NCBI GenBank assembly: GCA_003695765.1
Contig: RFHQ01000118.1
Location: forward strand, 1-64,000
Direction: 5' to 3'
Source of the DNA: Gammaproteobacteria bacterium
Lineage (GTDB): Bacteria > Pseudomonadota > Gammaproteobacteria > Steroidobacterales > GCA-2729495
DNA: 64,000 bases
Shown in pieces: positions 1,319 through 14,429 of this stretch. Made by a program: the position numbers and the translations under genes. The notes under the pieces are model-generated. The model was not told the origin of the DNA, ran no database searches, and saw only the letters and a program-made list of their open reading frames with translations. Within the stretch, counting starts at the first letter, position 1. The number at the start of each line of letters is the position of its first letter.

Positions 1319-2029
1319 ATGCGCCTGCAATCACCGTGGGCCGTCCCGCTGATCGCACTTGCCCTCGCATCGAGGCTCGCCGCCGCGGCCTTCGTCACCA
1401 CCAACCAGGCTGAGATGAGCCAGATCTATGGGCAGCCGGTGTTCGCCACGACACCGATCGACGTGCGTTTCCAGCCGGTCGTGACGATCGTGGCACCGGG
1501 ACTGCTGAATATCACGACGCTGGCCGAACTGAATGCACTCTTTGGCCTGTCGCCGGTGAACGCGCCCGGCATCAACATGTTCTTCGTCGACAGTGTCAGC
1601 GTGTGCAATACGCCGACGCCGGCACCGGGCATCCAGGGATGCGCGACCATCAACGGCAACGACATCGTCGTCGAATCGGTGGCGGCGGCCGATCCCCTGC
1701 CGCTGGCCGGGCCGGTGGGGAGCCTGAGCGCCGGCGCAGCCCTGAACGCCCACGAGCTGGCCCACAACCTCGGCCTGCCGCACATCCCCGAGTGTGCACC
1801 GAGTGTTCCGCCGAATCTGATGGATTGCCTGCTCACAGGCTATGAACTGACGGCCGCTCAGGCGGCGACCGTGCTGGCCAACAGCAGTGTGCTGCAGTCG
1901 GACCCCTCCGGGCTGTTCGTCAGCATCACGCCGATCCTGATCCTGCCGATCCCGGCGCCGCCGGCGCTGCTGCTCTTCGGCAGCGCCCTGATGCTGGGCT
2001 GGCTGAGTCGCCGCCGCGCCGCGCACTGA
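1319..2029 (+). CDS. Secreted metzincin-type zinc protease with a VPLPA/PEP-CTERM-like C-terminal sorting signal
   Basis: N-terminal signal peptide; HELAHNLGLPH (HExxHxxGxxH) plus a possible Met-turn 'PNLMD'; C-terminus PIPAPPALLLFGSALMLGWLSRRRAAH. Confidence 0.75.
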   Translation: MRLQSPWAVPLIALALASRLAAAAFVTTNQAEMSQIYGQPVFATTPIDVRFQPVVTIVAPGLLNITTLAELNALFGLSPVNAPGINMFFVDSVSVCNTPTPAPGIQGCATINGNDIVVESVAAADPLPLAGPVGSLSAGAALNAHELAHNLGLPHIPECAPSVPPNLMDCLLTGYELTAAQAATVLANSSVLQSDPSGLFVSITPILILPIPAPPALLLFGSALMLGWLSRRRAAH

Positions 2030-2049: not shown

Positions 2050-2472
2050 TCAGGGCTTCTGTTCGCGCATCATCTCCAGGTCGGGATTGAATGCGCGCAG
2101 GCCGCGCATCGCTTCGGTGAACTGCTCCAGCGGCCGGTCGTAGATCGACGCGGAACCCTGCAGCTGCCGGGCTTCTTCGAGCGCATCGCAGGGCTCCTTC
2201 GTGGCCGCTACCAGGGCCATGAACTCGTCGAGCAGCCGGCTGTTGATGTCGAACGGGTCCTCGTCGTCGGCCGTGGTCCTGAGCTCTTCCCAGCAGTCGC
2301 GGACCTTCTCCAGTGCCTCGCCGATCGCGGGTGCCCCGGCATCGTCGCCGACCTGCTGCCACAGTCGCGTGGCCAGGTCCAGCATGCTCTGGATCGCATT
2401 GGCCAGGTAGTTCAGGTGGAAGTGCCAGTCGCCTCTGATCTGCGAGAAATCGACCTGCTTGGCTTCGCTCAT
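2050..2472 (-). CDS. Hypothetical 140-aa protein (MSEAKQVDFSQIRGDWHFHLNYLANAIQ...)
   Basis: ORF whose start overlaps the stop of the upstream nitrilase-like gene by 4 nt (ATGA), implying translational coupling. Confidence 0.65.
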   Translation of the reverse strand: MSEAKQVDFSQIRGDWHFHLNYLANAIQSMLDLATRLWQQVGDDAGAPAIGEALEKVRDCWEELRTTADDEDPFDINSRLLDEFMALVAATKEPCDALEEARQLQGSASIYDRPLEQFTEAMRGLRAFNPDLEMMREQKP

Positions 2473-3623
2473 TGACCGTCCCTCTTGCTCAATCGGCCGG
2501 CAGCCGCCAGCCGTTCCCGGACCTCCGGATCGATCTCGTAAGGCTCCCAGCCCGGCGGGGCCGTGTAAACCCCCATCTCCACCATGCGGTTGATCTGGTG
2601 CTTCACGAGTTCCAGCTGCTGCGTTTCGGTCAGCGGCGGCTGTTCCATGGCCAGGTTGGCCGGATAGATGCCGCCGCGCGCCATCATCGCGTCGTAGATG
2701 ACCTTGTATTCCTCGACCCGCAGGTCTTTGGCCAGGTTCTGCCATTGCGCCCGGACCCGGAAGTCGCGCAAGCCGTCGATATCGAAGATCGCGCTGACCA
2801 AGGATTGCCCGCCGCCGAGGTACTCGGAGACCACGTTGCCACGGTAGTCGATGATCTGGCTCTTGCCACAGCTCATCTTCTGCTGGCCGCCCGGGAACCA
2901 GATCTCGCCGATGTTCGGCGCCAGCACGTAGCAGGTATTGAAGATCGCGTGCGAGCGGTTCTGGATCTCGGCGAAGCCATTGCCCATCCACGGCTCCGGA
3001 TACTGTGTCCGCCAGATGATCTCGGCACCGTTGAGCGCCAGGCCGCGGGCGGCCTCCGGGAAACTGCCCTCGGCGCAGATCAGCGTGCCGATGTTGCCGA
3101 TCTCGGTCCGCGCCACCGGATAGACGGCCTCGAACAGCCGTTGCGGATCGTCGCCATAGCGCTGCAGATAGAGATTCCAGATGTCGCTGGGCGCCACGTT
3201 CGGCTCGCGCTGGTAGAAAGCGGTCTTGTAGTGCTTGTGAATGACCTTGCCGTTCGGATCGATGATGAAGGCGATGTTGAACACCCGATCCTCCATCAAT
3301 TCCGGGTCCTTGGCGATCATCTGCGCGATGAGAAAAATATCAAACTTCCGGCAGAGCTCACCGAGAAACTCGGTTTCCGGACCTGGGATCGTCGGTACGA
3401 TCTCCCGCGCGATCCGGATATGTTCCTCGCCACCGCCGAGGCACCAGCCGCCGATGCCGCCCTCGGAGACCGCAACGAGACGGACCGGCAGGTCCAGGCT
3501 GCAGTTCCAGACCGCGTATTCGATGCTGCCGGCCAGCCCCTTGAGGTCGGTCCAGTAATCATCGATGCTGGTTGCCATGTGGGATTCGTTCTGGATCCCG
3601 ACGGCCGTGTATTGCAGTGTCAT
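2469..3623 (-). CDS. Carbon-nitrogen hydrolase (nitrilase/amidase superfamily)
   Basis: Glu (AVSEGG), Lys (HKHYKTAFYQRE) and Cys (GTLICAEGSFPE) triad contexts; start placed at MTLQYTAVGIQNE. Confidence 0.85.
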   Translation of the reverse strand: MTLQYTAVGIQNESHMATSIDDYWTDLKGLAGSIEYAVWNCSLDLPVRLVAVSEGGIGGWCLGGGEEHIRIAREIVPTIPGPETEFLGELCRKFDIFLIAQMIAKDPELMEDRVFNIAFIIDPNGKVIHKHYKTAFYQREPNVAPSDIWNLYLQRYGDDPQRLFEAVYPVARTEIGNIGTLICAEGSFPEAARGLALNGAEIIWRTQYPEPWMGNGFAEIQNRSHAIFNTCYVLAPNIGEIWFPGGQQKMSCGKSQIIDYRGNVVSEYLGGGQSLVSAIFDIDGLRDFRVRAQWQNLAKDLRVEEYKVIYDAMMARGGIYPANLAMEQPPLTETQQLELVKHQINRMVEMGVYTAPPGWEPYEIDPEVRERLAAAGRLSKRDGQ

Positions 3624-3738
3624 CTGCGTTCGCTCCAAGCTGTGGTGACCGAGGCGACACGGCACCGCGGGGCATCGGTCACGATGGCGGTTCCTGATAT
3701 GCTCCCGCGAGTTTACCGGATTCAGGGGAGCTTCATCG

Positions 3739-4989
3739 GTGAGCGTGAGGCCCGATCGAACCTCGGACAGCGCGTCGGCCTGGCGTCAGATCGCGCAGGT
3801 GCCGGCGCACACCTGGCGGGTGTTCTGCATCTGCCTGCTGGGCGTCAGCTTCGCCAATCTGGACCATTCGCTGTTCACCTTCGTGCTCACGGAGTTTTCG
3901 GAGGAATTCAATTGGTCGCTGACCGACCGCGGCTGGTATATCTTCATTACCTTCGTGCTGGCCGGCCTGGTCATCACGCGTCTGGGCGTGCTGACGGACC
4001 GGCTGGGCCGCAAGAAGATGCTGCTGGCCACGACGCTATTGACGCCCGTCTTCGTGGCCGCGCTGGCCTGGGTGCCGAATACGCTGAGTCTGGTCGTCGC
4101 CCGCACGCTGGGTTTCGCGATGGCCGGCGCACAGTCGCCGATCACGATCACGACCATGCTCGAAGAGTCGCCGGCGCGGCTGCGCGGGCTGTTCTCCGGC
4201 ATCCTGCAGATCGGCTTTCCGATCGGCTTTTTTCTCGCCGGCCTGCTGGTACCATGGATCTACGCGCGCTTTGGCTGGCGTTATATCTTCCTGCTGGCGC
4301 TGGTCTTTCTGCCCTATGCCTGGATCATTCATCGCTACCTGCGGGAGCCGCAAGCCTGGCTCGCCGCTCGCGAAATGGGCGGCCGGATCCCGCGCACGCG
4401 AGAGCTGTTCCGGCCGGACCTGCGACGCAAGACCATCCTGCTGTTCCTGGGCCAGTTCCTGTATGTCTTCGCCTACGGCACGACCATCCTGCTGACCGCC
4501 TACTTCCGCGAGGCGCTGGGCTGGGAAGCCGAGGAAGCGATCCAGATGGTTGGTTTCTCCTTCGGTATCGGGGCCTTCGGCTACATCGCCGCGGCGATCG
4601 TCGGCGAGTTCTACCTCAGCCGCCGGAATACCATCGTGCTGTGGTGCTGGCTCGGCGGGCTGGCTTTCGCCGCGATGGTCTGGCTCGTGCAGGAACGGGC
4701 TCAGATGCTTGCCATCTTCGGACTGATGACCTTTTTCTTCTATGGCGCCTATGCGGTGATCGCGACCTTCATCGCCGAGAACTACCCGCCGGAACTGCGC
4801 GCAACCGCCGCAAGTTTCGCTGGCTCACTGGCGATCGAGCTGGGCCTCGGCGGCGGCCCGCTGGTGGTCTCCTATGTGATCGAGGCTTCCAACTGGCAAT
4901 GGGGCTTCACCGCCTGCGCGGTCATTCCGGTGATCGTCGCCGGTGCGATTTTCCTGGGCCTGAAGCCGGTGCCACGGGAGGCGCTGTAA
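3739..4989 (+). CDS. MFS transporter
   Basis: GTG start; about 12 hydrophobic segments; GVLTDRLGRKKM loop motif; sugar/acid-type MFS. Confidence 0.9.
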   Translation: MSVRPDRTSDSASAWRQIAQVPAHTWRVFCICLLGVSFANLDHSLFTFVLTEFSEEFNWSLTDRGWYIFITFVLAGLVITRLGVLTDRLGRKKMLLATTLLTPVFVAALAWVPNTLSLVVARTLGFAMAGAQSPITITTMLEESPARLRGLFSGILQIGFPIGFFLAGLLVPWIYARFGWRYIFLLALVFLPYAWIIHRYLREPQAWLAAREMGGRIPRTRELFRPDLRRKTILLFLGQFLYVFAYGTTILLTAYFREALGWEAEEAIQMVGFSFGIGAFGYIAAAIVGEFYLSRRNTIVLWCWLGGLAFAAMVWLVQERAQMLAIFGLMTFFFYGAYAVIATFIAENYPPELRATAASFAGSLAIELGLGGGPLVVSYVIEASNWQWGFTACAVIPVIVAGAIFLGLKPVPREAL

Positions 4990-5307: not shown

Positions 5308-6003
5308 TCAGGTCGTGACTTCGTAGAAGATCCGCCGCGCCGTTTCCTTGCCGATCATCCTGGCGATCATGCCCTGGGCCTTGTCCTGCGTGCGGATGTC
5401 GCTGACGAAGCCGTCGTGGAATTCACGGATGCATTGCAAACGTTGCGGGTCCGTTTCCGGCGCCTGCTGCGCGGCGGCGGGCAGATAGCAGTCCAGGTAG
5501 TCCAAAGCACAGTTGCGCAAATCTTCGAAACGCTGCTTTGGGAACATGCCATAGATCGTGCAGTCGTTGCGGTATTTCAGCATCCATGCCGGGTAACGGT
5601 CGTCGCATTCGAACGATGGATAGCGCCGCAGGCGTTCCAACAGAGGCTCGACCCACTGCGCCCGGTCGCCGGCGTCGTCGAACGGGCAGTTCACGTTCAG
5701 GTGAGCAATCACCTTGCGCTTCGTCAGCAGGCAGAAAAAAATGAAGATCGGCGTGGCCCGGTCGGCTTCTGGATAGAAGATCAGGTTGATCTGGTCCAGC
5801 GGCGGCAGCTTGACGCGGAACCGCATGCCGAACAGCTTGCGGAAGCCGGGCGCTCGCCAATTGTAGTGGTCGGCATCCAGCACCTTGAGGAAGGATTTCG
5901 GCCTGGCCAGCGCCGGGTCCAGCGGCACGGCCTCGACCGGCCCATATTGCCGGACCCGCTCGATTGCCGTGTTCAGGAGCGCGTCGAGTTCGCTGGCGCT
6001 CAT
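5308..6003 (-). CDS. Putative divergent ferredoxin-dependent bilin reductase (FDBR/RCCR-fold)-like protein
   Basis: By-eye correspondence with the PcyA/PebA pattern: APGFRK..., LDQINLIFYPEADRATPIF, PAWMLKYRNDCTIYG, RFEDLRNCALDYLDCYL, and terminal FVSDIRTQDKAQGMIARMIGKETARRIFYEV. Overlaps the molybdoenzyme stop by 4 nt. Confidence 0.5.
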   Translation of the reverse strand: MSASELDALLNTAIERVRQYGPVEAVPLDPALARPKSFLKVLDADHYNWRAPGFRKLFGMRFRVKLPPLDQINLIFYPEADRATPIFIFFCLLTKRKVIAHLNVNCPFDDAGDRAQWVEPLLERLRRYPSFECDDRYPAWMLKYRNDCTIYGMFPKQRFEDLRNCALDYLDCYLPAAAQQAPETDPQRLQCIREFHDGFVSDIRTQDKAQGMIARMIGKETARRIFYEVTT

Positions 6004-8786
6004 GCGGCTGCGTATTTCTCGAAGTCGCAGGTCACATCCTGGAACACGGCGTTCGGTTCGAACTGGAAGGTCCGGTAGTTCACATGCCCCTGCCCGCCAG
6101 CCACGGCTGTCGGCTTGATCAGGCCGAAGGCCGACGTGACCGCACCGAAGTTCTGCCGCCCTCTGAACATCATCGGATCCCAGCCGTGGTACATGAAGGT
6201 CATGCCGGGCTGCATCGCCGGCGAGACGTGCGCCATGGCCACGAAGGCACCGTAGCGGTTGAACACGCGGATCAGTTCGCCATCGGCGACACCGCGCGCG
6301 GCCGCATCGTCCGGGTTGACGTAGATGTCCGGCTCGCCGCGCTGCAGGCCGACGAGCAGCGGATCATCGCGCCACATGCTGTGAATGCCGTGGCGGGCAT
6401 GTCCCATGACCAGCCGCAATGGCGCTGTTCGGTCACCGAGCGGCGCACGGTAGGCAGGCAGCGCTTCGCCCTCCTGCAGGAACCAGTCGTGGTCGATGTA
6501 ATACTGCTGCCGGCCGGTCAGCGTGTGGTAGGGCTTCTTGTCGTTGACGCTGCGGATCAGCGTGTCCCGGTACGGTGATCGCGGACCATAGACGAGCCCA
6601 TCGGAATCGGGCACGCGCGTGATACCGTTGCGCGCCAGCGTGTCGAAGGATTCCTTGGGAAAACCGGGATTGACTGCGATCTGGAAGTCCAGCGCATCGC
6701 GCATGCTCGTATAGGCGCCATTCTTCGTGAACAGCGCGTGGAACTGCGTGAAATCCCTCGTTACCGGCATGCCGAAATAATTGTCTTCGATGGGTGCGAT
6801 GCCGCGTTCCTCAGCGCGTTCGCTGATCGCCTTCGTCAGCCGTACGAACAGTTCGAAATCGTCGACCGCCTCGCCCAGCGGCGGCACGGCCGCGTCCAGG
6901 ACCTGCAGATAAGGTGTCCACTGCCACATGACGATGTCCTGGCGCTCGTAGTGATGCGCGACCGGCAGCACATAGTCCGAATACATGGCCGTCACGCCCA
7001 TGTCGGTCGCGCAGGTCACGATGTGCTCGAGCTGCTCGAAGGCCTCTTCCCGCCAGCGCTTGCCGGAGGCGCGCCAGTTGGCCGCATTGCTGCCCATGTA
7101 GAAACCCATCTTCCACGGGACACGGCCGTATTCCGGGAACCAGCGGTTCTGCACGGACTGCTGGAAGTACCGGTCGAAGTGCTCGGCCAGGGCTTCGCCG
7201 TAGATCTCGCGGTTCAGCTCCTTGCCGCCGGCATGCACATAGTCCCAGCGCGACAGCGTGGCCACGCGCAAGGTCGGCGGCAGGCCATCGAAGGTGAAGG
7301 CCAGCTGGTCCTGGTCCTGGGCGAGGTTCATGAACTGCAGGCCGCCCCCGGGCTTGCCCAGATTGCCGGTCAGTGACAGCAGCAGCAGCATCGATCGCTG
7401 TAGCAGGTCGCCATGCAGCCATTTCGATACCCGGAAGCCGGTGTAGATCATGGCCGGCTTGGCAGCGGCGAAGGTCCGGGCGATCTCGCGGATCACGTCC
7501 GGATGCACGCCGGTGATCTCGCGGGCCCGCTCCGGCGTGTAGGCAGCCAGCTGGTCCTTCAGCAGTTCGAAGACCGTGGTCACCTCGATCGGCCCGGCCG
7601 GGGTCTGGACCTGCCAGCGGCCTTCCAGCGCCGGCCGCAAGCCCCCGAGGCTCAGTCGCTCCGGGTGTTCGGGCACCGGCTGGCCCGGCGGCGGTACCCG
7701 AAAGCCGGTGCCCGGCGCCGCCACCGGCGCGTTTGCAGCCTGGTCCCAGAAATAGAAACGCTGATCGGCGCCGTCACCGGCATCGCCGAGGTCCGCGGCG
7801 CGCAGGAAGCGGCGATTGTCGGTCCGTACCAGAAACGGCAGGTCAGTCTGTTCACGGATGTAGTCCTCGTCGTGGCTGCCGTCCTCGATGATCACCTGCG
7901 CCATCGCCAGTGCCAGCGCCGTATCGGTTCCGGGCTTCGGGTTCACCCACTTGCTCGCATGCATCGCTGTTGGCGTGAATTCCGGCGAGATCGCGACGAC
8001 CTCGGTGCCGTTGTAGCGCGCCTCCCAGAAGAAATGCGCGTCCGGTATCCGCGTGACCGCAGGATTGGCGAACCAGATGAAACAGGCCTTCGACTTGAAG
8101 ATCGATGCCGCGGTGTCGCCGACCAGCGCCTCGCCGATCGTCAGGTAGATGCCGGTCGGGAGGTCGCCGACACCGGCGAAGGCCTCGGGCAACGGGCTGC
8201 CGGTGATGGTCGCGAAGCGCAGCAGGCCCATCAGCGAGGCACGCTTCATCGCCATCTGCGTGCCCAGGCCCATGGTTACCGACTCCGGGCCGTACTGGCT
8301 GCAGGTGTCGATGAAGCGATCGGCGATCTCGATCAGCGCCTGCTCCCAGCTGATACGTTCCCACTTGCCCTGGCCCCGCTCTCCGATCCGCTTCATCGGG
8401 TAGAGCACGCGCTGCCGGCCATACATGTATTTCGCATGCCGCAGGCCTTTCTGACAGCCGCGCGGCCCGTAGTCCGGCGCGTCCGGGTCCGACTTGCCGT
8501 ACTGGCCCTGCTGTTCCTCGCGCCAGACGATGCCGTTCTTGACATAGACATTGAAGGCGCAGCCGCCCTGGCAATTGGTGCCGTGTGAACCATGGGCGAC
8601 CCGGTCCCAGGTCCACTTGTGACGCATCAGGTCTTCCCAGCGGCCGTAGCCCTCGTCTGCGACCTGGCCGGCGGCGTTTGCATACTTGAGGCTGAGTGCG
8701 ACTGCACCGCCGCCCGCGAGAAACCCGCGCCGTGTCGTTGCCCTGCCTGCTGCCATCGCTGCCTCCCCTGCTATCCGCTCAGCCAT
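6000..8786 (-). CDS. Type II DMSO-reductase-family molybdopterin oxidoreductase alpha subunit (ethylbenzene dehydrogenase/steroid C25 dehydrogenase-like), Tat-exported
   Basis: Tat motif TTRRGFLAGGGAV; Fe-S site HGTNCQGGCAFNVYVKNGIVWREEQ...RGCQKG; NPAVTRIPDAHFFWEARYNG; PGTDTALALAMAQVIIEDG...REQTDLPFLVRTDN. Start taken at MAERIAGEAAM, 8 nt inside the upstream gene. Confidence 0.85.
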   Translation of the reverse strand: MAERIAGEAAMAAGRATTRRGFLAGGGAVALSLKYANAAGQVADEGYGRWEDLMRHKWTWDRVAHGSHGTNCQGGCAFNVYVKNGIVWREEQQGQYGKSDPDAPDYGPRGCQKGLRHAKYMYGRQRVLYPMKRIGERGQGKWERISWEQALIEIADRFIDTCSQYGPESVTMGLGTQMAMKRASLMGLLRFATITGSPLPEAFAGVGDLPTGIYLTIGEALVGDTAASIFKSKACFIWFANPAVTRIPDAHFFWEARYNGTEVVAISPEFTPTAMHASKWVNPKPGTDTALALAMAQVIIEDGSHDEDYIREQTDLPFLVRTDNRRFLRAADLGDAGDGADQRFYFWDQAANAPVAAPGTGFRVPPPGQPVPEHPERLSLGGLRPALEGRWQVQTPAGPIEVTTVFELLKDQLAAYTPERAREITGVHPDVIREIARTFAAAKPAMIYTGFRVSKWLHGDLLQRSMLLLLSLTGNLGKPGGGLQFMNLAQDQDQLAFTFDGLPPTLRVATLSRWDYVHAGGKELNREIYGEALAEHFDRYFQQSVQNRWFPEYGRVPWKMGFYMGSNAANWRASGKRWREEAFEQLEHIVTCATDMGVTAMYSDYVLPVAHHYERQDIVMWQWTPYLQVLDAAVPPLGEAVDDFELFVRLTKAISERAEERGIAPIEDNYFGMPVTRDFTQFHALFTKNGAYTSMRDALDFQIAVNPGFPKESFDTLARNGITRVPDSDGLVYGPRSPYRDTLIRSVNDKKPYHTLTGRQQYYIDHDWFLQEGEALPAYRAPLGDRTAPLRLVMGHARHGIHSMWRDDPLLVGLQRGEPDIYVNPDDAAARGVADGELIRVFNRYGAFVAMAHVSPAMQPGMTFMYHGWDPMMFRGRQNFGAVTSAFGLIKPTAVAGGQGHVNYRTFQFEPNAVFQDVTCDFEKYAAA

Positions 8787-9402
8787 GTTGTCCCGGCATG
8801 ACGAAACGCCGCCCGCTGGCCTGACCGAGCGCATATTCGACCAGCGGCATGCTTTCGTTGCCGTGGAACATCCGTTCGCCGACGAACATCGTCGCCGACG
8901 CAAAACCGCCGCGCGCCGCGAGTTCCCGTGCGTTGGCCGCCAGCGCTTCGGCGGTGCCGGGATCCGCCAGCGCCGAGTGGAACGCCGCGCCTTCCAGGCC
9001 GGCCGCCGCCGCGAGTTCCAGCAGGGCCGCCTCGGTCAGCGGCGGCTCGCCGCGCCCGAACTCGGCGGCCCAGACCGCCTCGGCGTAGGCGCGGGCCCGT
9101 TCCGTCGCCGCCGCGTAGACCGCGCCACGGGCGGCCAGCGTCAGCTCGGCGGGCCAGCCCTCGGGCAATTGCAGCGGTCGTGCGCAGAAATCGGCCCAGG
9201 CGGCCAGCATGCGCTGCGCATGCGCCCGCCGCGGCGGTTCGGCGGGCCAGCGCTGCTCAGCAGCCGACCGGCCGAGGTCGCTCAGCCGGAACGGCCGCCA
9301 GCGAATGCGCGCGCCGGTGCGCACGGCAGCCTCGTGCAAGCGCCCGGCCGCGAGGTAGGTCCACGGGCAACTCAGGTCGAAAAAGAACTCGACCTCGGCC
9401 AT
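8779..9402 (-). CDS. DsbA-family thioredoxin-fold protein (2-hydroxychromene-2-carboxylate isomerase/FrnE-like)
   Basis: MAEVEFFFDLSCPWTYLAAGRLHE N-terminus and a C-terminal GGFASATMFVGERMFHGNESMPLVEYAL segment. Confidence 0.75.
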   Translation of the reverse strand: MAEVEFFFDLSCPWTYLAAGRLHEAAVRTGARIRWRPFRLSDLGRSAAEQRWPAEPPRRAHAQRMLAAWADFCARPLQLPEGWPAELTLAARGAVYAAATERARAYAEAVWAAEFGRGEPPLTEAALLELAAAAGLEGAAFHSALADPGTAEALAANARELAARGGFASATMFVGERMFHGNESMPLVEYALGQASGRRFVMPGQHG

Positions 9403-9408
9403 GGGCCG

Positions 9409-10944
9409 TCAGCCGCGCCGGCGCAGCTCGGTCTTCAGGACCTTGCCGCTGGCATTGCGCGGGATCTGTTCGAGCAATTCGATCTCGCGCGGAATCTTCA
9501 TCCGTGAGATCCGCGGCTCGCACCACGCCTGCAGGCCGTCCGCTTCGAGTTCGGCGCCAGGCCGCGGCACGACGAAAGCCTTGAGTCGCTCGCCCCATTT
9601 CTCGTCCGGCACGCCGATCACCGCGACGTCGCTGATATCCGGGTGCTGGTGCAAGACCTCTTCGATTTCCCGCGGATAGATGTTGATGCCGCCGGAGATC
9701 ACCATGTCCTTCTTGCGATCGACGATGTAGATATAGCCCTCGGCATCCCGCCGCGCCAGATCGCCGACCGTGACCCAACCATCGTGGTAGGCCTCGGCGG
9801 TGGCCTCAGGGCGCCCCCAGTAGCCGTTGAACAGGTATGGGCTGCTGGAGAACAGTTCGCCGACTTCGTCCGCGTCGCAGAGGCTGCCGTCATCGCGCCG
9901 GATCTCGACGCGGGTCAGCGCGATCGGTTGTCCGACGCACTGTTGCTTGCGCAACTGGTCGGCCGGCCGCAGGTTGGTGACGATGCCCGCCTCGGTGGAG
10001 CCATAGGTCTCGTGCAGCAGCCCGGCGCCGAAATACTCGACCAGGCGTTCTTTCAGGGCCTGTGGCAGCGGTGCGGCATTCGAGATCACGCTGCGCAAGT
10101 GCCGTGGCCTGAACTGCGCCAGTGTCGCCTCCGGCAGATTCATCATCAGGTGAAAATGCGTCGGCACGCCGAAGAAGCCGGTCATCTGCTGTTCGCCGAG
10201 GCTGCGCAGCACGGCCTCCGGGTCGAAGCTGTCCATGATCTCCAGGTGGCCGCCGAAGAAGATCGGCGCGAGAGAAAAGATCATTCCCGCGCCGTGGCAC
10301 ATCGGCGCGATGGCCAGGAAACGGTCGTCCGGCGAATAGCAGCCGTACTCCACGGCCATGGCGAACAGGGTCAGGATCCGCGAGCGGTGGGGCACCAGCA
10401 CCCCCTTCGGCCGGCCCGTCGTGCCGGAGGTATAGGGGATCGTGAACACGCCCCATTCGGCGACGCCCGGTTTCGGCACCGGGCCATGGGCCGCGGCCAG
10501 CAGCGACTCGAGTTCCGGGCCGATCTCGACGAGCCGCTGGACGCTCGAGAACGAGGCATCCCGCAGGCGCGCGGCATTGTCGGCGTCAGTGAACAGCACG
10601 CGCGCCTGCGCGTCGTCACAGATCGCGACGACCTCCGCCGTTGCCAGCTTCGGATTCACCGTGGCCAGTGCCACACCGCTGGCGGCCGCGCCGAGGACGA
10701 TTTCCAGGTATTCGATCGAGTTGCGCGCGACGATGGCTGCATGGTCGCCGGCGCTCAGTCCGAGGCCTTGCGTGATCGCGTTGCCCACCCGCTCGATTCG
10801 TTCGACCAGCTCGCCGTAGCGTCGCTGCCGGTTCCCGTGGCGGCAGGCAATCTTGTCCGGCGCCCGGCTGGCGGCGGCGCGTACCCCGTCGGCCAGCGAC
10901 AGGTGCTGGAAGGAAAATGGCAGTTCCGGGCTGCGTGGGGGCAT
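9409..10944 (-). CDS. AMP-dependent acyl-CoA synthetase/ligase
   Basis: AMP-binding motif YTSGTTGRPKGV; ETYGSTEAG; GDLARRDAEGYIYIVDRKKDMVISGGINIYPREIEE. Confidence 0.92.
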   Translation of the reverse strand: MPPRSPELPFSFQHLSLADGVRAAASRAPDKIACRHGNRQRRYGELVERIERVGNAITQGLGLSAGDHAAIVARNSIEYLEIVLGAAASGVALATVNPKLATAEVVAICDDAQARVLFTDADNAARLRDASFSSVQRLVEIGPELESLLAAAHGPVPKPGVAEWGVFTIPYTSGTTGRPKGVLVPHRSRILTLFAMAVEYGCYSPDDRFLAIAPMCHGAGMIFSLAPIFFGGHLEIMDSFDPEAVLRSLGEQQMTGFFGVPTHFHLMMNLPEATLAQFRPRHLRSVISNAAPLPQALKERLVEYFGAGLLHETYGSTEAGIVTNLRPADQLRKQQCVGQPIALTRVEIRRDDGSLCDADEVGELFSSSPYLFNGYWGRPEATAEAYHDGWVTVGDLARRDAEGYIYIVDRKKDMVISGGINIYPREIEEVLHQHPDISDVAVIGVPDEKWGERLKAFVVPRPGAELEADGLQAWCEPRISRMKIPREIELLEQIPRNASGKVLKTELRRRG

Positions 10945-10950
10945 GGTCCC

Positions 10951-11808
10951 TCAGCCCGGCAGTTTGAATACGCGCAGTGCGTTGTCGCGCATCAGCAAGC
11001 GCTTGGCGTCCTCGCGCAGCCCCAGCGCATCGACCTCGTGCACGGCACGCTCCGGATCGATGACCGGCCAGTCGGTGCCGAACATCACCTTGTGCTTGCC
11101 ATAGCTGTTCGCGTAATGCACGAAGGACTCGGGCCAGTAGCGCGGCGCGTAGGCATCGCCGGCCGTGTAGACATTCTCGTGTTTCCAGCACATGGAGATC
11201 ATTTCCTCGGTCCACGGGATGCCGATGTGGATGCCGATGAGCCTCAGCTCCGGAAAATCGATGGCCACCTGGTCGAGGCAGATCGGTCGCCCGACGCTCG
11301 GCAGGCGCCGCTCGCGGGAATACACGAGGTTGTGGCCAACCTGCATCATGATCGGGATGTCCAGCTCGCAGCACTTGGCGTAATAGGGGTAATACTTTGC
11401 GTGGTCCGGCGGCAGCTCGCACCAGTGCGGATACAGGTGAGCGCCGACGAAGTCATACTCGCGCACCGCCTGCTCCAGGTCCCGCAGCCCACGCATGCCG
11501 CGAAAGGGGTCGATACCGGCGAGGCCGGAGAAACGCTCGGGATATTGCCGGCAGACTTCGTAGACCCGCTCGTAGGGGATCTCGAAACCGCCGCGCCTGT
11601 TGATGTCACCGGCGCGGACCGCGATCAGCAGCGAGCGTTCGATGCCAGCGCGATCCATGCGCTGCAGGTAGTCCTCGATCGGCACGCCGCCGCGGATCTC
11701 CTCGGGCATGCGCACTTGGGCCTTGAAGGCCTCGTCCAGGCCCGTCTGCCCCCTCTCGACCTCGAGCGGGGTAAAAAGATTACAAACAATATCAATGGCT
11801 CCAGCCAT
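10951..11808 (-). CDS. Amidohydrolase_2 (ACMSD-like) family protein
   Basis: IGIHIGIPWTEEMISM, KVMFGTDWPVIDPE; overall ACMSD-like layout; N-terminal HxH motif replaced by VCN. Confidence 0.8.
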   Translation of the reverse strand: MAGAIDIVCNLFTPLEVERGQTGLDEAFKAQVRMPEEIRGGVPIEDYLQRMDRAGIERSLLIAVRAGDINRRGGFEIPYERVYEVCRQYPERFSGLAGIDPFRGMRGLRDLEQAVREYDFVGAHLYPHWCELPPDHAKYYPYYAKCCELDIPIMMQVGHNLVYSRERRLPSVGRPICLDQVAIDFPELRLIGIHIGIPWTEEMISMCWKHENVYTAGDAYAPRYWPESFVHYANSYGKHKVMFGTDWPVIDPERAVHEVDALGLREDAKRLLMRDNALRVFKLPG

Positions 11809-11844: not shown

Positions 11845-12750
11845 TTACCAGCCGTCGAGGTCCCACTCGCCGGTCGAACGCGAGCGCACCGGGATGCCGG
11901 CGATCACCGGCGCCTCGGTGACCGGGTCGTAGTTCACGGCATCGCCCTCGACGATCACGCGCTCGTTCACGGTAATCCAGTTCACCAGGCTGCCGTCGAG
12001 GCGGAAGAAGCCGGTCCAGCCCTTTTCCTCGCCGGCCACGAAATGCCCGTGCTTCACGCGCGCCGGGCGGAAGAAATAGGTGCCTGCATCGAGGGTACCG
12101 AAGTTGTAGACCAGGTGCCCGTCGAGACTGTAGGCCTCCTCGAAGACCGGGTGATGCACCATGCGGTTGTCCGACCAGCCGGGTGGCGCCCAGGCCAGCA
12201 TCGTGACGAAACCGGTGTTGTTGTCGTCCGGCGAAGCCGGATCCAGGTACAGCAGCTTGAGCTTCAGGAAGCGTTGGGTATCGCCCTCGTAAACGTTGGG
12301 CATCCATTCCATGCGGCTGGTGTCGACCACGGTCAGTTCGCCGGGTTCGTCCGACACGGTATTGCCGCCGCGTGGCACGAACTTGTCGCGGTTGCCCTTC
12401 GCCGCGGTGAAGCCCCAGTCACCGTATTCCCGGAACAGCAGAATCTCCGAGCCTGCCTGCACCGAGATCTCCGGCACCCAGAGGCCGGCGGGCGCTCGGA
12501 AATACGCCCCCTTGCCGAGCAAGCGGTCGCCCAGCTTGACGGCTCCATCCATGACAAACCACTCGACATCGGCATTGTGATAGCCGGCCGGCCGGTGCCA
12601 GGCACTGTCGAAGTGCAGGCGCGTCGACGCGGCGCCGTTCTCCTCGTCGTAGGACAGGTTCCGCTGGCGCACGCGGCCCTCGCCGCCGTACAGCTCGGCG
12701 GCATGCCAGCAGAGGTCTTCGGCCTGGATCAGTTCAACATGGGGTCGCAT
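11845..12750 (-). CDS. Cupin-domain protein
   Basis: MRPHVELIQAEDLCWHAAELYGGEG...; beta-rich cupin-like repeats (GAYFRAPAGLWVPEISVQAGSEILLFREYGDW). Confidence 0.65.
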   Translation of the reverse strand: MRPHVELIQAEDLCWHAAELYGGEGRVRQRNLSYDEENGAASTRLHFDSAWHRPAGYHNADVEWFVMDGAVKLGDRLLGKGAYFRAPAGLWVPEISVQAGSEILLFREYGDWGFTAAKGNRDKFVPRGGNTVSDEPGELTVVDTSRMEWMPNVYEGDTQRFLKLKLLYLDPASPDDNNTGFVTMLAWAPPGWSDNRMVHHPVFEEAYSLDGHLVYNFGTLDAGTYFFRPARVKHGHFVAGEEKGWTGFFRLDGSLVNWITVNERVIVEGDAVNYDPVTEAPVIAGIPVRSRSTGEWDLDGW

Positions 12751-12944
12751 CGAATCTCCTCGGAACCATCGCCTGGCCGGCACGCCGGCCCTGTCAGTAG
12801 ACTATCAACAGTTTCCCTTGAGGGCGCAAGCGCCGCCGCGGCGCCCCGCCCTGCGGTCGCCGCATTGCATCGCCCGGGCGCGCCGGGCTGCGGGCCGGGA
12901 TTTTGCGGTATCGTTCCGGGGCAGCATCTGTTCAGGGTCCGCCA

Positions 12945-13616
12945 ATGAGCGAATTCGAAGCCTGGAAATACCTGCACATCCTGATGTTCGTATTCTGGAT
13001 CGGCACCGACCTCGCCGTGTACCTGTCGGCGCGCAAGGCCACCGATCCAACCCTGCCCTTCGATGCCCGCGTGCTGCTGCTGCACTGGGCGCTGCGGATC
13101 GAGCTGCTGCCCCGGACGATGTGGAAGGCGGCGTTGCCGCTGGGCGTGATGCTGTCGGTCGATATGGGGCTGCTGGATCTCGGTGGGCCCGGCATCGCGC
13201 TGGTCTGGGCCTTCACGCTGGCCTGGTGGGCGATCAGCGTGACCGGCGCCTACAAGTACGACCAGCCGCTCGGCCATCGGCTGGGCAAGTTGAACAATCT
13301 GCTGACCGGCATCGTCGGCGTCGGCTTGATCGGGCTCGCGCTCGCGTCCGCCGCCGGCCACGGCCCCTTCGACGCGAATGCCAGCTGGCTGCTGTGGAAG
13401 GTCGGCCTGTATGGGCTGATCAATCTGATGGTGATCCTGATGCTGGTCGTGTTCGACCCGATGGGCGTGGCTTTCGCCCGCATGGCCAGCGAGGGCAGCA
13501 CACCGGAGCTGGAGCAGATCATCGGTTCGGTCATGAGCCGCTCGACGATCGTGATCTGGGCCACTTACGCCACGATTGCGCTGGTGGCCTTCATCGCCAC
13601 CAGCAAGGTGCTCTGA
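12945..13616 (+). CDS. Integral membrane protein, paralogue of the 13623-14429 product
   Basis: Multiple hydrophobic helices; shared pattern LMFVFWIGTDLAVYLSARKATDPTL...RIELLPR. Confidence 0.75.
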   Translation: MSEFEAWKYLHILMFVFWIGTDLAVYLSARKATDPTLPFDARVLLLHWALRIELLPRTMWKAALPLGVMLSVDMGLLDLGGPGIALVWAFTLAWWAISVTGAYKYDQPLGHRLGKLNNLLTGIVGVGLIGLALASAAGHGPFDANASWLLWKVGLYGLINLMVILMLVVFDPMGVAFARMASEGSTPELEQIIGSVMSRSTIVIWATYATIALVAFIATSKVL

Positions 13617-13622
13617 ACGGCC

Positions 13623-14429
13623 TCAGGGCGCCGCGACCGTGCTGGCCGCGACGACGTCCGGGGCGCGGCGGTCTCCTGGCTGGAAGACGCCGAGCGCCGC
13701 TGCCATCAGCAGGCAGATCCACATCGCGATGACATAGGGCCGGGTCAGCGCGAGGCTGCCCGCCATACGCCGGTCGTTTTCCGGGCTCGCGCCCTCCGCT
13801 GCCATCCGGCCGATGCCCGCGAGCAAAGGCGCGACGCGCAGCCGCATCAGCAAGCCGAACAGCAGGATGGCCGCGAACAGCAGCAGCTTGCCGGCCACCC
13901 ACGGCGTCTCGGCCAGCCGGCCGCTGGTCCAGGCCTGGCCCACCGAGCCCAGCACGGCGACGATCATCACGGCGCGGAACCAGAAGTCGATCCGTGCCAG
14001 CCGGTCGCCGGCCGGTGTGCCGCGCTTCAGGTACACGGCCAAGACCAGCGCCAGCCAGGCCGGCCCCAGCAGCACGATGCCGAACAGCTGCCATGCCGGA
14101 TGCGGGATGCCGATGAACTCGGTCAGCAAGCCGCCGGCCGTCAGCATCAGGCTCAGGCAGACGCGCGGCACCAGGTCCACCTGGCTCATGACCTGGGCCG
14201 CTGCCAGCCGTTGCGCCGGCGACAGGCGGGTATCGGTGATCCGGTGGCTGAGGTAGTACACCCCGATGTCCGGCCCCAGCCAATAGACGAACAGCAGCTG
14301 GTGGACGAACAGCGCCAGTTCGGCGGCCGTCAGGCCATCGTCGGCACCGCGGACGCCGGCCGCCGCGAACAGCAGCCCGGCCGGCAGCAGCACCAGTCCC
14401 CACAGCATTCCCGCGCCCGCGCGTCCCAT
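13623..14429 (-). CDS. Integral membrane protein, paralogue of the 12945-13616 product
   Basis: LLFVYWLGPDIGVYYLSHRITDTRLSPAQRL...VDLVPRVCLSLM mirrors the convergent neighbour. Confidence 0.75.
   Translation of the reverse strand: MGRAGAGMLWGLVLLPAGLLFAAAGVRGADDGLTAAELALFVHQLLFVYWLGPDIGVYYLSHRITDTRLSPAQRLAAAQVMSQVDLVPRVCLSLMLTAGGLLTEFIGIPHPAWQLFGIVLLGPAWLALVLAVYLKRGTPAGDRLARIDFWFRAVMIVAVLGSVGQAWTSGRLAETPWVAGKLLLFAAILLFGLLMRLRVAPLLAGIGRMAAEGASPENDRRMAGSLALTRPYVIAMWICLLMAAALGVFQPGDRRAPDVVAASTVAAP

Follow-up and report, generated by a model that had tools for sequence, protein, structure and literature searches.

Within the window, the whole 64,000-nucleotide stretch analysed here, a gene for a 231-aa protein with the fold of ferredoxin-dependent bilin reductases (FDBRs) lies directly behind the gene for a molybdoenzyme catalytic subunit of the type II DMSO-reductase family, hereafter MO1. 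The pair is real: it recurs among related genomes within one lineage of uncultured gammaproteobacteria, where it is optional rather than obligate. Our leading, though tentative, reading is that the small protein is a divergent, lineage-specific cytoplasmic enzyme or binder, which would have a ligand of its own and serve as an optional accessory of the catabolic MO1 cluster.

The FDBR-fold protein and its pocket

The FDBR-like ORF (5308..6003, minus strand) was matched by the PF05996 Fe_bilin_red profile (E 4.1e-12, 46.7 bits, curated cut-off 31). A sequence-only reading of this DNA had assigned the two genes to the molybdoenzyme and FDBR-like families, and TIGR03479, PF05996 and the fold bear this out. 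The AlphaFold model, for which an alignment of 17 relatives was the input, had a pLDDT of 93.6 and a pTM of 0.91. When this predicted structure was submitted to Foldseek, the top match was PebA (15,16-dihydrobiliverdin:ferredoxin oxidoreductase; 2x9o, E 3.3e-12, TM 0.84), and the matches 2x9o, 6qx6, 6kme, 2g18 and 2zxk included PebA, PEBB, HY2, PcyA and RCCR. The predicted fold is thus unmistakably that of FDBR/RCCR proteins. The earlier reading had allowed for a canonical chaperone, but Pfam search, AlphaFold and Foldseek yielded neither a PF02613 (TorD/NarJ) match nor a helical fold. Compared with its counterpart in G159, the gene had a dN/dS of 0.09, the same value as the molybdoenzyme, and we therefore regard it as a real gene under constraint. 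Its C-terminus, RIFYE(V/I)TT, was near-identical across 17/17 aligned relatives. No signal peptide was seen on inspection by eye.

To obtain residue equivalences, the protein was aligned by profile with PDB chains; some of the PcyA numbering follows general background on the enzyme. In this alignment the catalytic Asp105 of PcyA corresponds to Phe90, Glu76 to Met60, His88 to Asn73, W154 to Trp140 and N219/D220/K221 to Q206/D207/K208. Phe90, Asn73, His101 and Asn103 were invariant in 22/22 relatives. Trp140, Asp207 and Lys208 were invariant in the 21/21 relatives covering these positions, and Q206 was likewise invariant wherever it was covered. The C-terminal Asp (D206 of PebS, D220 of PcyA), which we take to have a catalytic role, is thus present as Asp207. 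Since these pocket residues are invariant, the pocket looks remodelled and not decayed, although the loss of Asp105 may mean that the protein is no longer a reductase. PebA and GtPEBB have a similar fold (TM 0.83-0.84), an Asn at the His88 site and, within a conserved helix, the C-terminal Asp that is D207 in the present protein. They differ from the FDBR-like protein in sequence (about 20% identity), in the residue at the Asp105 site, which is Phe here, and in genomic setting: here the gene is linked to a molybdoenzyme, and neither a haem oxygenase nor a partner that would bind bilins was found.

FDBRs are known for making phytobilins, light-sensing pigments of plants and algae, downstream of haem oxygenase. 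An ordinary bilin reductase, reducing biliverdin from the environment or from an unrecognised haem-degrading enzyme, would agree with the Foldseek result, the conserved Asp207 and the Asn88-type residue. However, the best score against the NCBIfam equivalogs for PcyA, PebA and PebB was 23.5 bits, far below the cut-off of 263, and the Asp105 site is an invariant Phe. Classical haem oxygenase, the only haem oxygenase family searched, gave no match above cut-off in 22 genomes, the PHY (phytochrome) domain was absent from all 20 genomes searched, and V4R was found in 1/20. The pre-PcyA proteins (pre-1, pre-2 and pre-3) are likewise FDBR-family proteins of non-photosynthetic bacteria, and pre-1 FDBRs also lack Glu76, His88 and Asp105 (Rockwell 2023, PMC10151467). 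That some activity persists in pre-1 proteins without any of the three catalytic residues (Rockwell 2023, PMC10151467) speaks for the ordinary reductase, which we nevertheless consider unlikely. The described gene neighbours set the present gene apart from all three groups: pre-1 and pre-3 FDBRs of heterotrophs adjoin haem oxygenase, V4R, Fe-S and globin genes, and pre-2 FDBRs a globin and a B12-binding protein (Rockwell 2023, PMC10151467). Haem oxygenase, V4R and globin genes were not seen near the FDBR gene in neighbourhoods with identified members. As the pre-PcyA neighbours, Fe-S and B12-binding genes included, were not seen here, the setting is a different one.

MO1 and its gene cluster

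The FDBR-like gene ends a tight minus-strand array that runs from 12783 to 5308. The array comprises genes for a DUF4437/ChrR-like cupin protein (11845..12783; PF14499, E 1.5e-35), an Amidohydro_2 family hydrolase/decarboxylase (10951..11808; PF04909, E 1.2e-39), an AMP-forming acyl-CoA ligase (9409..10944; PF00501, E 2.6e-73), a DsbA/HCCA-isomerase-like protein (8779..9402; PF01323, E 3.9e-29), MO1 (6000..8786) and the FDBR-like protein. At 6000..6003 the letters ATGA were read on the minus strand, confirming the reported 4-nt overlap of the FDBR start codon with the molybdoenzyme stop. The 8-nt overlap also reported between MO1 and the DsbA-like gene (8779-8786) stands only if MO1 starts at the ATG at 8786, which has no ribosome site. 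An alternative ATG at 8756 is preceded by a strong ribosome site, AGGGGAGG, and judging from these signals it is at least as likely to be the start, if not the likelier one; with it there is no overlap.

Beyond the FDBR-like gene lie an AAHS-like MFS transporter (3739..4989, plus strand; PF07690, E 4.4e-44; TIGR00895 below its cut-off) and a nitrilase-superfamily hydrolase that is conserved in the cluster (2469..3665, minus strand; PF00795, E 1.5e-27; 88-91% identical to its L001 counterpart). They are followed by a gene for a 140-aa protein of no known family (2050..2472, minus strand; L001 counterpart 63% identical), which several genera retain next to the nitrilase gene or ahead of the cupin gene and whose L001 and L003 relatives had no Pfam match. 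A secreted protein with the zinc-protease motif HELAHNLGLPH and a C-terminal sorting-like tail is encoded at 1319-2029 (plus strand). On the other side of the array, two convergent membrane-protein genes (12903-13616, plus strand; 13623-14429, minus strand) are conserved beside the cluster; their products are about 25% identical to each other, and neither had a Pfam match.

MO1 was matched by TIGR03479 (DMSO_red_II_alp) with E 6.5e-262 and 871.6 bits, short of the curated cut-off of 984.75. It also matched, over its full length, perchlorate reductase PcrA (5e7o, E 1e-161) and ethylbenzene dehydrogenase EbdA (2ivf, E 2.3e-131). With the type II family (PcrA, EbdA, steroid C25 dehydrogenase) it shares the Fe-S0 ligands HxxxCxxxC...C, the Mo-ligand Asp in a GDxPTG motif, as aligned to PcrA, and a Tat signal (TRRGFL). 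Unlike PcrA, it has no Tyr beside the Mo-ligand Asp in the alignment. MO1 clusters also differ from the known systems in that neither the beta and gamma subunits nor TorD are encoded next to MO1; the one exception is a beta subunit in G052 (locus L124, G052:C7), the only genome seen with an Fe-S beta gene directly behind MO1.

Most genomes of the family carry a second paralogue, MO2, which is then followed by an Fe-S beta gene, in G000 directly. A TorD/NarJ-family gene was found elsewhere in the genome in 17 of the 19 FDBR genomes of the family and in 40/43 genomes overall. Sterolibacterium is reported to have more alpha than beta and gamma genes, and two chaperones (PMC6153880). The simplest reading of this arrangement is that MO1, itself one of a paralogous pair of type II catalytic subunits, shares its beta subunit and chaperone in trans, probably borrowing both from operons elsewhere. 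In many genomes of the family a nitrilase-superfamily gene was also seen directly before MO2 (loci L100, L102, L134, L136, L141, L143-L145, L147 and L148), the MO2 usually being followed by the beta subunit. These nitrilases are 27-31% identical to the paralogue in the reference cluster. The presence of nitrilase genes at both MO1 and MO2 loci suggests that the substrates of these enzymes belong to a nitrogenous class.

Distribution of the pair and of its parts

FDBR matches were found in 21/296 genomes of the order, nearly all from the window's own family, and the class and phylum samples gave no further relatives outside the family. Within the family, the FDBR gene occurs in 19/30 genomes with MO1 and in 0/10 without a recognised MO1 (Fisher p = 5e-4, a value uncorrected for phylogeny and subject to the incompleteness of several MAGs, G000 among them). 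The relation in the family is one-way: every FDBR genome has MO1, but 11 MO1 genomes have no detected FDBR. In eight of the 19 FDBR-bearing genomes, spanning three genera, the gene is directly behind MO1 (G000, G159, G088, G094, G147, G168, G103 and G191). G194 has a contig break at exactly this place, and in the other ten (G015, G052, G062, G177, G183, G115, G143, G180, G077 and G135) the gene lies away from MO1. MO1 clusters with no detected FDBR were found in G171, G111, G153, G099, G070, G123, G041, G127 and G107 and, judging from partial matches, probably also in G174 and G185, giving 11. The sequence-only reading had named rare co-occurrence as an outcome that would tell against the pair. 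This is not what the neighbourhoods show, although the association runs in one direction only. The same reading knew of no described pairing of the two families, and our full-text search of the available literature likewise found no description of an FDBR paired with a molybdopterin oxidoreductase.

The exact 4-nt overlap was kept in only two relatives, L001 and L002. L095 has an 8-nt overlap and the other relatives have short gaps, so gene order is better conserved than overlap length.

The main rival to our reading is that the FDBR-like gene has a function of its own and is merely a passenger, co-transcribed with MO1 in some genera after settling there by chance. Unrelated genes (his operon, FG-GAP, TMEM260-like, MscS) surround it in the ten genomes where it lies apart and at locus L014, and the operon link may therefore be incidental. 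G171 has the same cluster minus the FDBR gene, the MO1 stop being followed directly by the transporter start. In the FDBR tree the G135 (g4) sequence falls among g3 sequences, which suggests independent transfer. Pairwise distances for FDBR and the molybdoenzyme correlated with r 0.62, compared with 0.59-0.72 for FDBR and most other cluster genes; specific FDBR-MO1 co-evolution was rejected, as the correlation was not in excess of that with other cluster genes. Three observations speak against a passenger: FDBR shows one-way co-occurrence with MO1, the two genes adjoin tightly in g1 and g5, and in G002 FDBR is paired with a molybdoenzyme of an unrelated subfamily. We regard the passenger as quite possible, if somewhat less probable than an enzyme or binder serving the cluster.

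G002, from another family of the same order, has FDBR without MO1. Its FDBR gene lies behind an FdhF/YdeP-family molybdoenzyme (TIGR01701), as at L008, with a short gap between the two. A tie between FDBR and this FdhF-like enzyme was rejected, since orthologues of the latter (68-72%) occur with and without FDBR. Nor does L008 stand as a separate case from the Alphaproteobacteria: its FDBR and that of the order-mate G002 are identical, and the two therefore count as one case inside the order. Viral spread of FDBR was rejected, with no relative in IMG/VR. In G135 the FDBR-like gene adjoins a VanA-like Rieske oxygenase gene (L116:8176-8871 and 9173-10303).

The earlier reading had placed the FDBR-like protein in the slot of a chaperone. 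As a maturation partner it would hold the MO1 apo-protein or cofactor before Tat export, replacing TorD. Its gene is directly downstream of a Tat-exported subunit, the place taken by TorD in the MO-TorD-beta operons of relatives (L101, L106 and L107, all in the same order). The apparent lack of a signal peptide, the conserved C-terminus and the placement behind a different molybdoenzyme in G002 also fit such a role. However, the protein differs from TorD/NarJ (PF02613) in fold and sequence, and separate TorD-family genes are present in nearly all of the same genomes. The Tat motif was checked across relatives and is clear on MO1 in most of the 11 genomes with no detected FDBR. The gene lies elsewhere in ten genomes, and there is no co-evolution signal. 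A maturation role is thus improbable, and the chaperone slot, above all as an obligate one, is weakened both by the TorD genes elsewhere and by the MO1 clusters without FDBR.

A possible second function of the fold

We favour the repurposed enzyme or binder because the fold is that of an FDBR, the pocket residues are invariant, classical haem oxygenase and PHY were not found, FDBR occurs in the family only alongside MO1, and it lies behind MO1 in eight genomes and behind another molybdoenzyme in L008/G002. Weighing against it are the placements elsewhere (10/19 and L014), G002 without MO1, the lost Asp105 and the incompleteness of some MAGs. The protein would be cytoplasmic and have a ligand of its own. 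It would either reduce this ligand in its remodelled pocket, with electrons from ferredoxin, or bind it, the ligand in that case being bulky, conjugated and tetrapyrrole-like. The Tat-exported MO1 would oxidise its substrate in the periplasm, with the FDBR-fold protein as an optional accessory of its catabolic cluster.

A bolder view is that a protein of this fold has left pigment synthesis behind and now serves molybdoenzymes of two or more unrelated subfamilies as a dedicated partner, whether by aiding their maturation or by supplying or sensing a tetrapyrrole-like ligand; we think this doubtful. A constrained FDBR subfamily in heterotrophs in which neither classical haem oxygenase nor phytochrome was found, with a remodelled site and a recurring molybdoenzyme neighbour, suggests a second function of the fold. 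The FDBR-like gene offers a concrete, testable case for the role of FDBRs in non-photosynthetic bacteria.
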